A stretch of 64,000 bases of DNA from Paragemmobacter ruber (GTDB lineage: Bacteria; Pseudomonadota; Alphaproteobacteria; Rhodobacterales; Rhodobacteraceae): NCBI RefSeq assembly GCF_009908315.1, contig NZ_JAAATW010000003.1, positions 248,001-312,000 of the forward strand. The letters are read 5' to 3'. The stretch's first letter is position 1; each line of letters opens with the position of its first letter. Below are positions 5,452 through 12,583 of the stretch, in pieces. The position numbers and the translations under genes were made by a program. The notes beneath the pieces were generated by a model. The model did not search any database and was not told the DNA's origin. It saw nothing but the letters and a program-made list of their open reading frames with translations.

Positions 5452-7902
<2,451 letters not shown>

Positions 7903-8024: not shown

Positions 8025-8052
8025 GGAATAAAGAAGCGCGGCCGCGCGTTGT
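8025..8052 (+). promoter_or_regulatory. Candidate ECF-sigma promoter of the subtilase gene
   Basis: GGAATA (8025-8030), 16-bp spacer, CGTTGT (8047-8052); predicted start ~8059, about 33 nt before the ATG. The same motif (GGAATA-N15-CGTTGT) lies upstream of the ECF sigma gene on the opposite strand at 11475-11501, at a similar distance from its start codon. The -35/-10 style is typical of ECF promoters, so the sigma factor probably drives both. A TATGATAAT stretch at 8003-8011 could be an additional sigma-70 -10. Confidence 0.6.
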
Positions 8053-8091
8053 GATGCAAAATCGGTCACGCCCTACGTCATTGGAAACGCC

Positions 8092-9522
8092 ATGCCGCCT
8101 GTCACCCATCGCCTGCTTGCCGCGCTTTTGCTTTCAACGCTGATCGTGCCTGCCCCGTCGCTGCTGCCGCTTGAGGGGGCGTCCCTCGGTGGGGCGGCCT
8201 GGGCGCAGGACAGTGACGGCGGGGATGATGGCGGGGACGATGGTGGCGACGACAGCGACGACAGTGACGACGACAGCGACGACGACGATGATGATGACGA
8301 TGACGACGATGACAGCGCCCGTGCCGGGGGTGGGGGCGGGACGGATTTCTCGCGCCGTGGGCAGCGTCCGCGGGCCGCGGCCCCGGCAGCGCCGCCGCCC
8401 CCGGTCCGCGTGCCGGATGAAGTGGTGGTGACCGATCTTTCGCCCGAGACACTGGCCCAGTTGCAGGGCGAGGGGTTCACGCTGATCGCCGAGCAGCAGC
8501 TAGAGAACCTCGGGGTGGCGGTGACGCGGCTGCGGGTGCCGCCCGCGCTGGGGCTGGAGGCGGCGCGCGAGCGCGTGCGCGCCCTGCCGGGGGGGGAGGA
8601 CGCGGATTTCAACCATTTCTATCGCCCCGGCCAGGCGGAGGCCGAGGCTGTGACCGATGCGGCCGCCTGCGCGCCCGAGAACTGTCCGGCGCTGGAATTG
8701 ATCTCGTGGCCTGCGGAGCGGTCCGAGACCTGCCGCGTGTCGCTGCCGGTGGGGATGATCGATACCGGGGTCAATGCCGAGCATGATATCCTGACGGGCG
8801 CCCGGCTGGATGTGCTGCGTATGGCGGATGAGGGGCAGGATCCTTCGGCGGCGGTTCATGGCACGGCGGTTGCCTCGCTGTTGATCGGGACGGAGGGAAG
8901 CCGCGTGCCGGGGCTGATCCGCGAGGCGGAGGTGATCGCGGTGGATGTGTTCTCGAAAGCGGGCAGCGACGAGCGCGCCGATGTGACCGCGCTGATGCGG
9001 GGCCTTGATGTGCTGAGCGCGCAAGGGGTGCGGGTGATGAACCTGTCGCTGGCCGGGCCGGAGAATGACGCGCTGACGGTGGTGCTGGATCGGATGACCG
9101 GGCCAGAGGGCGCGGTGATCGTGGCGGCGGCCGGCAATGCCGGGCCGGACGCCCCGCCCGCCTGGCCTGCGGCGCATCCCGGGGTGATTGCGGTGACGGC
9201 GGTGGATGCGCGCGGGCGCGTCTATCGCGGGGCGCAGCGGGGCGCGCATATTGACCTGGCGGCGCCGGGGGTTGGGCTTCTGGCCGCGACGTCGATCCGG
9301 GGGGCGCGGGGCAAGACGGGGACGTCTTATGCGGTGCCTTTCGTGACGGCGGCGGCGGCGGTGCTGTTGTCGCAGAACCCGACGCTGACGGCGGCGCAGG
9401 TGGCAGAAGAGCTCAAGTCACGGGCGCGCGACATCGGGGCAGAGGGGCCGGATGACGTGTTCGGGGCCGGGCTTCTGGATGTGGCGGACCTGTGCGCGAT
9501 GGCAGCGCCGCTGTCGGATTGA
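8092..9522 (+). CDS. Secreted S8 (subtilisin-type) serine peptidase with poly-Asp N-terminus
   Basis: 476 aa. Signal peptide 1-39 ending AWAQ, then an extremely acidic run (about residues 40-74, almost all Asp with Ser/Gly), a Pro/Ala linker, and an S8 domain with Asp224 (MIDTG), His256 (HGTAVASLL), oxyanion Asn349 (AAGNAG) and Ser412 (GTSYAVPF). All catalytic residues are intact. The Asp run may bind calcium or act as a prosequence (inference). It converges on an ECF sigma/anti-sigma operon and has a promoter matching that of the sigma gene, so it is likely a regulon member or the protease that releases the sigma factor. Ends in a strong terminator. Confidence 0.85.
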   Translation: MPPVTHRLLAALLLSTLIVPAPSLLPLEGASLGGAAWAQDSDGGDDGGDDGGDDSDDSDDDSDDDDDDDDDDDDSARAGGGGGTDFSRRGQRPRAAAPAAPPPPVRVPDEVVVTDLSPETLAQLQGEGFTLIAEQQLENLGVAVTRLRVPPALGLEAARERVRALPGGEDADFNHFYRPGQAEAEAVTDAAACAPENCPALELISWPAERSETCRVSLPVGMIDTGVNAEHDILTGARLDVLRMADEGQDPSAAVHGTAVASLLIGTEGSRVPGLIREAEVIAVDVFSKAGSDERADVTALMRGLDVLSAQGVRVMNLSLAGPENDALTVVLDRMTGPEGAVIVAAAGNAGPDAPPAWPAAHPGVIAVTAVDARGRVYRGAQRGAHIDLAAPGVGLLAATSIRGARGKTGTSYAVPFVTAAAAVLLSQNPTLTAAQVAEELKSRARDIGAEGPDDVFGAGLLDVADLCAMAAPLSD

Positions 9523-9561
9523 GCCGCCCCCGGGGGGTGGAGGCAGGTGGTGGAGAGGCAG

Positions 9562-9598
9562 GGCGCGGATGGTGGAAGCCATCCGCGCCTTTGTTTTT
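9562..9598 (+). terminator. Rho-independent terminator of the subtilase gene
   Basis: Perfect 11-bp stem GGCGCGGATGG/CCATCCGCGCC (9562-9572, 9579-9589), 6-nt loop, then TTTGTTTTT. One of the strongest terminators in the window. Confidence 0.9.
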
Positions 9599-10194
9599 GG
9601 CAGGGCGGCGCGGGCTGATCGGCGCGGTGCGGGGGGGGCGTTTGGTGCAAGGGGGGCGGGTTGCGGTGGGATGGCCGTGGGCGAGAGGGTGGCGCGGGCG
9701 GTGGGGTCATGCGTGCGCTTGGTCCTGGAGGGGGTGCTTTGGCGGATTGGTCAGGCGCATGGGGAGGGGGCTTTGGCGCTTGGGAGAAGGGGATTCGTCC
9801 GCGCGGCGGGGATGCTGCGGCGGGACTGTGGGGCTTGGGTTGGGTTTGGGTGGTGGTGCGGGCGAGCGGGGGAGCGGGCGCGTTTGCGTTTGGTGGGGGT
9901 GAGGTGGTTTGGCCTGCGCGGTGGTGATGGGGGGATGGCCGGGCTTTGCAAGGGGATGGGATGCGGTGGGGTGGGCGTGGGCGAGAGGGTGGCGCGGGCG
10001 ATGGGGTCAGCCGTGCGCTTGGTGCTGTAGGGGGGGCTTTAGCTGATCGGCCCTGTGCGGTGGAGGGGGTTGGCGCTTGATGTGGGGGATTGGTCAGCGC
10101 GGGGGTGATAGGGCGGTGGGATGGCGGGGGAGATGGGGCTTTGGGGCGGATGGTGGGGGGCATCCGCCTGCATTGTCCTGCCGCAACGCCCCCG
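9599..10194. other. G-rich noncoding tract with a 300-bp-offset direct repeat
   Basis: About 600 bp without a credible gene. Long open frames exist only because G-rich DNA lacks stops; none has a family resemblance or matching codon use. The plus strand is very rich in G over C with many GGGG runs. Bases 9661-9750 align without gaps to 9961-10050 (78 of 90 identical, offset exactly 300). Similarity continues a little upstream (GCAAGGGG at about 9649 and 9948). A hairpin GGCGGATG/CATCCGCC near 10148-10171 resembles the subtilase terminator core and may end the anti-sigma transcript, though it lacks a U tract. Confidence 0.6.
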
Positions 10195-10935
10195 CTATTG
10201 CGCCCAGTTGCGGGCGATGAGGGCGGCCTCTTCTTCGGGGGAGAGGGCAAGACCTGCGCCGCGTTGATCGAGATAGGCGGAGAGACCTTCGGCGGCGGCG
10301 CCTTCGGCGGGGAGGAAGGCGTCGTCTTCCCCGGCCGGGAGGAGCGGTTCCTGCAGCACCACGGCGATGGACCAGCCGCGTGCCGGATCGAGGCAGGCGA
10401 GCGCGACCTCCATCCGGGCGGCGCGGCGATCGAGGGCCTCGACCTCGCGGCAGGGGCCGGTATCGGTGGGCAGGGTGGACAGGATCATCAGATCGCGCCC
10501 TTCGCCCTGCGGCAGGGGTGTGCCGGAGGGCAGGGTGGCCAGCGCCTCGGCCAGCGGCGAGCCGGAGGGGACGGGACCCGCGGCGAGGGATTGCGCGTCC
10601 ATCGGGCGGAACAGTAGGACAGCGGCGGCGAGGCTGGCGGCAAGGGCGAGGGCGCCCGCCAGCAGGCCCGCGCGGGGGCGGAAAGCGATCACCTGTGCCG
10701 AGGCCGGGGCCGTGCCACGGATCGCCTGATCCAGCGGTGCGGGAAGCGGATCGCCCATCGGGGCGGCGAAGGCCTGCGCCAGCGCTGCATTGGCGGCGAA
10801 GAGGTCATCGACATAGGCCTGATCGTCGGGATTGCGGGCGAGGTGCATCACCACCGCCGCCGCCTCTTCGGGCGAGAGTTCGCCATCCACGAAGGCGGCG
10901 AGGCGGGTGCGGTCCATGGCGGGAGGGGGGGTCAT
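10195..10935 (-). CDS. Membrane-anchored anti-sigma factor
   Basis: About 246 aa. N-terminal ~60-residue helical domain (DRTRLAAFVDGELSPEEAAAV...) of the anti-sigma type without the HxxxCxxC zinc motif, one transmembrane helix at about 89-109, and a ~135-residue periplasmic domain. Its ATG overlaps the sigma stop in ATGA, so the two are translationally coupled. It should hold the sigma factor at the membrane until an envelope signal. A second Met at residue 7 is an alternative start. Assignment rests on architecture plus the neighbouring sigma gene. Confidence 0.85.
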   Translation of the reverse strand: MTPPPAMDRTRLAAFVDGELSPEEAAAVVMHLARNPDDQAYVDDLFAANAALAQAFAAPMGDPLPAPLDQAIRGTAPASAQVIAFRPRAGLLAGALALAASLAAAVLLFRPMDAQSLAAGPVPSGSPLAEALATLPSGTPLPQGEGRDLMILSTLPTDTGPCREVEALDRRAARMEVALACLDPARGWSIAVVLQEPLLPAGEDDAFLPAEGAAAEGLSAYLDQRGAGLALSPEEEAALIARNWAQ

Positions 10936-11438
10936 TGGCGGGGTCCCTGGCTGAGGCCGAGTTTGGGCAGGAGCGCCTCGCGGGCGCGGGAGAGGCGGCT
11001 CATCACGGTGCCGACGGGGATATCCAGCGTTTCCGCCGTTTCGCGGTAGCTGAGGCCTTCGATAGCGACGAGGGCGAGGACGGTGCGCTGTGCTTCGGGC
11101 AGGGCGGCCATGGCGGCCCGGGTCTGGGCGAGCATCATGCGATCCTCGGGCAGGCTGGCGGCCTTGCCTTCGTCGCTGAGATCGGCGTCGTCGGGATCCA
11201 TGGCGGTGCCGCGCCGCTGGTGGCTGCGGCGATCGTCGATCCAGAGCGTCTGGATGATCCGATACATCCAGCTGTCCATGCGCGTGCCGGCCTGAAACTG
11301 TGCCGCGTTGCGCAGCGCCTTTTCGCAGGCGGCCTGCACCAGATCATCGCCGTCCTGCCGGTTGCCGGTCAGGCTGTAGGCGAAGCGCCGCAGCTTTGGG
11401 ACAAGGGCGACGAGGTCCTGTCGAAAGCGGTCTTGCAT
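10932..11438 (-). CDS. ECF-subfamily RNA polymerase sigma factor
   Basis: 168 aa from the ATG at 11438, preceded by AAGGA at 6 nt; a TTG six codons earlier is possible but overlaps that site. Region 2 (DLVQAACEKALRNAAQF, RMDSWMYRIIQTLWIDDRR) and region 4 (LPEAQRTVLALVAIEGLSYRETAETLDIPVGTV) are clear, and there is no region 1/3, as in ECF sigmas. Coupled to the anti-sigma gene. A GGAATA-N15-CGTTGT motif upstream suggests autoregulation and a shared regulon with the convergent secreted peptidase. Confidence 0.92.
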   Translation of the reverse strand: MQDRFRQDLVALVPKLRRFAYSLTGNRQDGDDLVQAACEKALRNAAQFQAGTRMDSWMYRIIQTLWIDDRRSHQRRGTAMDPDDADLSDEGKAASLPEDRMMLAQTRAAMAALPEAQRTVLALVAIEGLSYRETAETLDIPVGTVMSRLSRAREALLPKLGLSQGPRQ

Positions 11439-11474
11439 TGGAATTCCTTTGGACAAGGCACTTGATCCGGCAAG

Positions 11475-11501
11475 ACAACGCCGCTGCCAAGGGTCTATTC
11501 C
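11475..11501 (-). promoter_or_regulatory. Candidate autoregulatory ECF promoter
   Basis: On the minus strand: GGAATA (11501-11496), 15-bp spacer, CGTTGT (11480-11475); predicted start about 30 nt before the sigma ATG. Same hexamers and nearly the same spacing as the subtilase promoter at 8025-8052. Confidence 0.6.
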
Positions 11502-11835: not shown

Positions 11836-12123
11836 ATGATCGTCTGCCACTGTTCGGGCATATCGGACCACGACATCCGCGCGGCCATCACCTGGATGCG
11901 GCGGGCCGATCCGGACACGATCATCACGCCGGGCAAGATCTATCACGCGCTTGGGAAACGTGCCGATTGCGGCGGTTGTATGCCGCTCTTGCTTGACACC
12001 ATGCGCCACTGTGCCAGCCTTGAGGTACCCACGACGCCGCCGATCCTGCGCGCGGTGTCCAGGCAGATGCAAACAGACCTCAGGCAAGGACGGCACCATG
12101 AAGGGCGATCCCAAGGTTATTGA
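11836..12123 (+). CDS. bfd: Bacterioferritin-associated ferredoxin (2Fe-2S)
   Basis: Small [2Fe-2S] protein that reduces the ferric core of bacterioferritin to release iron. CHC at the N-terminus ([11 protein letters not shown]) and DCGGC near residue 45 supply four cysteines in the Bfd pattern. 95 aa is longer than a typical Bfd; the extra C-terminal tail runs 26 bp into bfr in another frame and may be poorly conserved. Directly upstream of its partner bfr. Confidence 0.88.
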
Positions 12124-12583
12124 ATTTCTCAACGCGGCGCTGCGGTCGGAACTGACCGCCGTCAGCCAGTACTGGCTGCATTACAGATTGCAGGAAGATT
12201 GGGGCTATGGCCATCTGGCCGCCAAATCCCGGGCCGAGAGCATTGAGGAGATGCATCACGCCGACAAGCTGATCGCGCGGATCATCTTTCTGGAGGGGCA
12301 TCCGAATCTGCAAAAGCTCGATCCGCTGCGGATCGGGCAGGACCTGCGCGAGACGCTGGAGGCCGACCTTGCCGCCGAGCATGAGGCGCGCACGCTGTAT
12401 ATCGAGGCGCGGCGGCATTGCGATCAGGTGGGCGATTTCGTGACGCGGGCGCTGTTTGACGAGCTGATCGCGGATGAGGAAGGGCATATCGACTTTCTCG
12501 AGACGCAGATGGGCCTTTACGACCGTCTGGGGGCCGAGAAATACGGCATGCTGAACGCCAAGCCCGCCGATCAGGCCGAGTAA
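12098..12583 (+). CDS. bfr: Bacterioferritin
   Basis: 161-aa haem-containing ferritin that oxidises and stores iron as a 24-mer. Ferroxidase ligands Glu18, Glu51 and His54, haem ligand Met52 ([10 protein letters not shown]), and the later EAR..H and DEEGH motifs are present. ATG at 12098 has AAGGA upstream and gives the standard length; longer in-frame starts overlap bfd. Forms an iron-storage unit with hemP-bfd. Confidence 0.96.

Follow-up and report, generated by a model that had tools for sequence, protein, structure and literature searches.

Why should the gene for a secreted subtilase and an operon for a sigma factor and its anti-sigma factor, facing each other in the genome of Paragemmobacter ruber, be preceded by almost the same promoter? 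The genes lie in a 64,000-nucleotide stretch of this genome (the window; contig NZ_JAAATW010000003.1, positions 248,001 to 312,000). Upstream of the subtilase gene, a motif search located GGAATA-N16-CGTTGT (8025..8052, + strand), with a leader of 39 nt to the ATG at 8092, and upstream of the operon for the extracytoplasmic function (ECF) sigma factor it located GGAATA-N15-CGTTGT (11475..11501, − strand, read 11501-11475), with a leader of 36 nt to the ATG at 11438. A preliminary description of the locus had reported the shared hexamers and the N16 and N15 spacers, which were confirmed at both sites, and leaders of similar length, which also held, but at these values rather than the ~30-33 nt given there. 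The full motif (GGAATA-N15/16-CGTTGT) was matched twice in the window compared with 0.02 matches expected, and none of 100 shuffles contained two; across the 3.96-Mb genome there were three matches and none to a reversed-pattern control, and a chance origin of the pair was ruled out by these controls. The pattern shortened to GGAATA-N15/16-CGTT was far less specific (11 genomic matches versus 5 reversed). Both window sites conform to the published ECF26 consensus, a −35 element of GGAATA and a −10 element with GT (PMC6180224). The sigma operon and the subtilase gene would share their start signal because both belong to one small conserved regulon, as the preliminary description had proposed, and this claim is well supported by the conservation of the motif, the co-occurrence of the genes, and the precedent of RpoE6 in Sinorhizobium meliloti.

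The preliminary description had also suggested a search of related genomes, and there the two genes were found to co-occur and to be preceded by the motif. Among 19 genomes of the genus, P. ruber included, a sigma orthologue (70% or more identity) was present in 8, the subtilase in 8, and both in 7; when GGAATG and CGTTAT variants were counted, the motif preceded 7 of the 8 sigma orthologues and all 8 subtilase genes. The GGAATG variant occurred at both sites of G003, and CGTTAT was found before the subtilase genes of G003, G007, G010, and G011. In G007, which is 83% complete, the subtilase and its site were detected and the sigma orthologue was not, while G018 carries the sigma gene behind a site with GGAATA but a degenerate −10 element and has no subtilase. 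For 394 genomes of the family, using cut-offs of E ≤1e-35 for the sigma factor and E ≤1e-50 for a close subtilase, the former was detected in 33, the latter in 31, and both in 26 (p = 2e-29, a value that ignores kinship among the genomes); a close subtilase was present in 26/33 genomes with the sigma factor versus 5/361 of the others.

Loci were additionally collected by means of the subtilase alone, and the best 80 of 503 confirmed loci (the named loci) are nearly all alphaproteobacterial by title, with L236 titled only Proteobacteria and L240 titled Bacillus subtilis. The L240 record carries an otherwise alphaproteobacterial locus and is perhaps a mislabelled or contaminated assembly. The sigma gene was present at 75 of the 80 loci, with divergent (62), convergent as in the window (9), or tandem (4) orientation; of the remaining five loci, four have <400 nt to the left of the subtilase gene, compared with 8.6 kb at L251 (Microvirga). 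After removal of 3 of the 80 loci having <160 nt of flank, the site was found before the subtilase gene at 36/77 loci by a strict pattern, 54/77 by a relaxed pattern, and 0 by the reversed pattern. The corresponding values for the sigma gene were 12/75 (strict) and 16/75 (relaxed), with 1 for the reversed control, and the sigma site was also seen at nine family loci beyond the branch of the window (L111, L112, L114, L115, L117-L119, L123, and L124). Other open reading frames (ORFs) had the strict motif in 67/2608 cases versus 0 for the reversed motif, a background that counts frames overlapping the same promoters. The subtilase/sigma pair is kept across the Rhodobacterales and Rhizobiales.

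The sigma factor (168 residues; 10932..11438, − strand) contains regions 2 and 4, and its gene overlaps the start of the anti-sigma gene by 4 bp. It is 45% identical across 157 residues to RpoE6 of S. meliloti, which has been assigned to ECF26 (PMC6180224). In a tree of 107 sequences, some of them duplicates, 94 including the window protein and RpoE6 were split with support of 0.995 from an outgroup of 12 genus paralogues (of 21 tried) and one second sigma protein of L185; the split in a first tree test was unclean owing to that second gene, which was then set aside. On the basis of its kinship to RpoE6, the window sigma factor is placed in ECF26, in a comparison that did not include other ECF groups or RpoE1/3/4. 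A second, different ECF sigma gene also lies near the ECF26 locus of L107 (the same contig as L185), at about 6167-6628. At six loci (L116, L120, L121, L122, L125, and L126) the motif stands within the sigma gene or at its end, directly 5' of the anti-sigma gene, and a motif in a comparable position has been reported for S. meliloti ecfR6.

The anti-sigma factor (246 residues; 10195..10935, − strand) has the layout described for the ECF26 anti-sigma factors of S. meliloti, being encoded downstream of the sigma gene and comprising a cytoplasmic N-terminal domain, one predicted membrane helix (residues 88-112), and a periplasmic C-terminal part. Its N-terminus is of the zf-HC2 type and lacks the HxxxCxxC sequence. 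Comparison of 23 proteins (that of the window and 22 relatives, with L122 skipped as having no anti-sigma match) by a simple hydropathy cut-off identified a membrane helix in 22 and missed that of EcfR6, for which a helix is reported (PMC6180224). The periplasmic cysteine residues of the window protein, Cys162 and Cys181, have counterparts in all 23 proteins, EcfR6 included. Sulfite breaks disulfides. Because the cysteine pair is invariant and because some ECF26 systems respond to sulfite (PMC3511301), the pair suggests a disulfide sensor by which the anti-sigma factor might release the signal. The subtilase (476 residues; 8092..9522, + strand) has a signal peptide recognized by eye, an Asp-rich linker (25 Asp among residues 39-80), a conserved N-terminal region, and an S8 catalytic domain in which D224, H256, and S412, plus N349, occupy the positions expected for Peptidase_S8.

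The preliminary description knew of no system with exactly this composition, but one has been described. In S. meliloti, overexpression of RpoE6 was shown experimentally to raise the protease gene SMa0142, a prominent target, and the divergence of rpoE6 from this serine protease gene is reported to be widely conserved in ECF26 (PMC6180224). The same study lists SMa0142 as raised by RpoE6 and weakly by RpoE4, but not by RpoE2, and states that its microarray data could not define the role of RpoE6. When the S. meliloti locus was re-read, SMa0142 proved to be a subtilase 42% identical to that of the window, and the published promoter string was found 5' of the protease gene. The two loci are alike in their homologous sigma factors and subtilases, the downstream anti-sigma gene, the GGAATA...CGTT promoter, and, in S. 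meliloti, a protease gene raised by the sigma factor. They differ in that the RpoE6 locus is divergent, whereas the window genes are convergent and 2 kb apart. Close to the S. meliloti genes lie a DUF6065 gene, matched to SMa0148 through the promoter string in print, and an Asn/Ser repeat gene behind a motif, whose position suggests that it is SMa0146. RpoE1 and RpoE4 of S. meliloti also belong to ECF26 and have GAA and GT elements in their −35 and −10 regions; unlike the window system, they are associated with a sulfite response and sulfite oxidation targets, and the available part of PMC3511301 mentions no subtilase. ECF54 sigma factors likewise have subtilase genes in their context, but according to PMC8999054 they have no anti-sigma factor and are proposed to be controlled by proteolysis, a mechanism described as mainly actinobacterial.

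The third full motif of the genome lies 40 nt 5' of the start of a gene for another exported protein, a 129-residue Gly/Ser/Asn-rich protein of the twin-arginine translocation (Tat) type. A 430-residue frame begins 1 nt after this gene (assuming a TTG start) and contains a PqqD domain (9e-11), with HprK-related matches (HprK_rel_A) that fell below the curated cut-off; profile comparison matched it to a solved HPr(Ser) kinase and also to PqqD and lasso B1 proteins. The predicted model of this putative kinase was confident (pLDDT, the predicted local distance difference test, of 89), and in a Foldseek search with it PEPCK structures headed the ranking, HPr kinase 3tqf standing at rank 46; the query TM-scores of 0.21-0.40 are low, as is expected when one domain alone is shared. 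Relatives of the kinase were present in 30 of the 394 family genomes, 13 close and 17 distant. Close kinases occurred in genomes with the sigma factor in 10/13 cases (11 if G384 is included, where the sigma gene next to the kinase in L091 missed the cut-off) versus 0/17 for distant kinases, and a motif-preceded Tat peptide was encoded upstream of 8/13 close versus 0/17 distant kinases, the distant L267 having a stray site; two more close kinases are accompanied by a Tat peptide whose site is degenerate. The preliminary description had drawn the regulon from the window pair; the operon for the repeat protein and kinase lies elsewhere in the genome and was invisible from one window.

This arrangement resembles that of the linear polyphosphorylated peptides, in which an HprK-like kinase with a recognition domain (RRE) is encoded beside a small precursor and phosphorylates its serine (PMC13381572); in P. 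ruber the kinase and recognition domain beside the small protein are present as a fusion (L157:1169-2458). The published systems, as far as the available text of PMC13381572 describes them, are from Bacillota and possess a discrete RRE, an SpI-type peptidase, a transporter, and an NTP transferase, whereas P. ruber has the kinase-PqqD fusion, a Tat signal, and a subtilase that is co-regulated but encoded at a distance. The frames of L157 were read by eye, without a profile search for an SpI peptidase, transporter, or NTP transferase, and the next long frames after the kinase are on the opposite strand.

A fourth regulon target is likely to be an RTX calcium-binding protein (L159:1439-2443; G000:C1:573487), whose gene has a CGTT-only site 44 nt upstream, itself within a long open frame. 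Related RTX proteins with a site were found at L106, L107, and L108, and no ORF was found behind the RTX site in the genus relatives L137 and L139. Seven of the 11 CGTT-only genomic sites have no assigned target, and six of these seven fall within long open frames on either strand, for which coding is unproven.

Repeat proteins of several kinds were encountered at the loci of relatives. In six of seven genus relatives with a fetched region (all but G018), a copy of the motif located 3' of the anti-sigma gene precedes a gene for a small exported NGG-repeat protein. The named loci contained 32 ORFs (at 31/80 loci) that combine the motif with a signal-like stretch and a body of low complexity, compared with 0 behind the reversed motif, a control to be read in light of the fact that the reversed motif precedes 13 ORFs overall versus 244 for the motif. 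The pairing of repeat proteins with neighboring enzymes was counted over 103 loci, with L044, L045, L046, L107, and L108 omitted as duplicates or near-duplicates and L077-L105 unused for their short flanks. DUF6065 was encoded at 27/28 loci with Asn/Ser repeat proteins, an HTTM protein plus a DCC1-like oxidoreductase at 6/8 with Asp-rich repeat proteins, and an HprK-like kinase (PqqD fusion) at 7/7 with Tat Gly/Ser-rich proteins. Counted in reverse, two of the 29 DUF6065 loci lacked an Asn/Ser peptide (L178 and L212) and two of the 8 HTTM loci lacked an Asp-rich peptide (L186 and L202); for the 9 kinase loci, the peptide of L203 was sorted as NGG by script yet reads as Tat, and no peptide was found at L201. 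The single HTTM protein tested matched the vitamin-K carboxylase lumenal domain (1.4e-40).

DUF6065 genes had the strict motif at 22/26 loci, and all six family genomes with close DUF6065 have the sigma factor, compared with 1/21 for distant ones. The fold of DUF6065 could not be read from its predicted model, which was unusable (pLDDT 36). In the P. ruber genome no match was found to DUF6065 (E up to 1e-15) or to HTTM (E up to 0.001); where S. meliloti has the Asn/Ser repeat with DUF6065, P. ruber has the unlinked Tat Gly/Ser peptide with the HprK/PqqD kinase. At L110 (G233, which has no close subtilase) a motif-preceded Asn/Ser repeat gene on the minus strand, running from about position 386, is broken by a stop codon. 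The regulon of P. ruber and its relatives appears to make, in addition, an exported repeat protein and a possible modifying enzyme. The sigma/protease system is of a known kind, and it is the extended regulon that looks new; our literature searches found no description of this wider regulon and none mentioning DUF6065.

The explanation that we favor, and regard as probable if by no wide measure, is an ECF26 regulon that consists of its own operon, the subtilase, and a modified exported repeat protein for which the subtilase is the maturation protease. The membrane anti-sigma factor would release the sigma factor upon a signal, and the ECF26-type pair would then activate its own operon and the subtilase gene from their near-identical promoters, together with the Tat peptide/kinase operon at G000:C1:218210, where the site and the genes are seen and transcription is presumed. 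By analogy with the polyphosphorylated peptides (PMC13381572), the kinase may grip the small protein via its PqqD domain and phosphorylate serines before Tat export, after which the exported subtilase would trim it beyond the inner membrane. It is from this proposed trimming that we read the subtilase as most likely the regulon output, a maturation protease and not one that removes the anti-sigma factor. In a bolder form, which we offer tentatively and hold less firmly, the loci encode an undescribed export system for low-complexity repeat proteins. Three unrelated enzymes would be interchangeable in it, the repeat residue deciding which of them modifies the protein (DUF6065 for Asn/Ser, the vitamin-K-carboxylase-like HTTM protein with the DCC oxidoreductase for Asp, and the PqqD-guided HprK-like kinase for Ser); the protein would then be exported and trimmed by the subtilase to yield a polymer at the surface or outside the cell that is charged and may bind Ca2+.

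Several observations weigh against the favored explanation. The support in P. ruber comes from sequence, and the subtilase is linked to the peptide by co-regulation alone. The kinase is missing from the other 18 genomes of the genus, and two close kinases with Tat peptides occur in genomes with neither the sigma factor nor the site. Six genus relatives have the NGG-repeat gene but lack all three enzymes within the locus that was fetched; the repeat classes were drawn up post hoc, after the proteins had been seen, and the related genomes are not independent. The subtilase site was absent from 23/77 named loci even by the relaxed pattern. The S. meliloti rpoE6 gene is transcribed from an RpoD/RpoH-like promoter and has no motif at its mapped start (PMC6180224), whereas the window sigma operon has a motif upstream. 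Because the sigma site is scarce at divergent loci (6/62) and universal at convergent ones (9/9, with 1/4 tandem), autoregulation via the motif, as predicted from sequence, is a trait of some branches, that of the window included, and not of all. Finally, 49 of the 103 loci have neither a peptide nor an enzyme nearby, a count that also favors the view of the subtilase as a co-regulated general secreted protease, an output for nutrition or envelope stress that is not specially tied to repeat proteins. S8 proteases are commonly secreted and broad in action, which is in keeping with that view, but the conservation of the pair over two orders and the N-terminal linkers of the subtilases, which look like the repeat proteins in being Asp-rich or Tat plus Gly/Ser, argue against it, and we consider it unlikely.

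We think it quite improbable that the subtilase instead acts as a site-1 or feedback protease that attacks the anti-sigma factor in its periplasmic domain, the other role that the preliminary description had envisaged besides regulon output. The subtilase gene constantly neighbors that of the membrane anti-sigma factor, and both the protease and the domain face the periplasm; positive evidence for cleavage was not found, and G018 and G233 retain the sigma and anti-sigma genes although they have no close subtilase. This counter-evidence is weak because both loci may be decaying, as the degenerate sigma promoter of G018 and the stop in the G233 repeat gene indicate. EcfG-type sites have the form GGAAC...CGTT, and their similarity to the window sites raises the prospect that the general stress sigma factor EcfG, rather than the neighboring sigma factor, mainly reads them. 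The S. meliloti data bear on both alternatives (PMC6180224): there the protease gene responds like an output, with which feedback is still compatible, and the regulon of RpoE6 overlaps with that of RpoE2, but the response of SMa0142 to RpoE6 and not RpoE2 speaks against EcfG, as does the agreement of the GGAATA sites of the window with the ECF26 consensus. In the 190-210 nt that precede each of the two window genes no GGAAC-type site was present, and a main role for EcfG is very improbable.

The G-rich spacer between the subtilase and anti-sigma genes (9523..10194) contains an imperfect internal duplication of ~185 bp (79%) at the place where relatives carry the repeat gene. A remnant of their small NGG-repeat gene was sought there and rejected, with no minus-strand motif at ≤2 mismatches and no tblastn match in the spacer. 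Genes for a BFD-like ferredoxin and a bacterioferritin (11836-12583) adjoin the sigma promoter.

The sigma/protease pair was known but had no assigned function, and the pairing of repeat proteins with enzymes offers it a testable role in the production and maturation of a repeat protein that is modified and exported. If this is true, DUF6065 would gain a substrate, a bacterial carboxylase homologue might be suggested to carboxylate acidic residues, and peptide modification by a kinase with an RRE would be extended to Tat-exported proteins.

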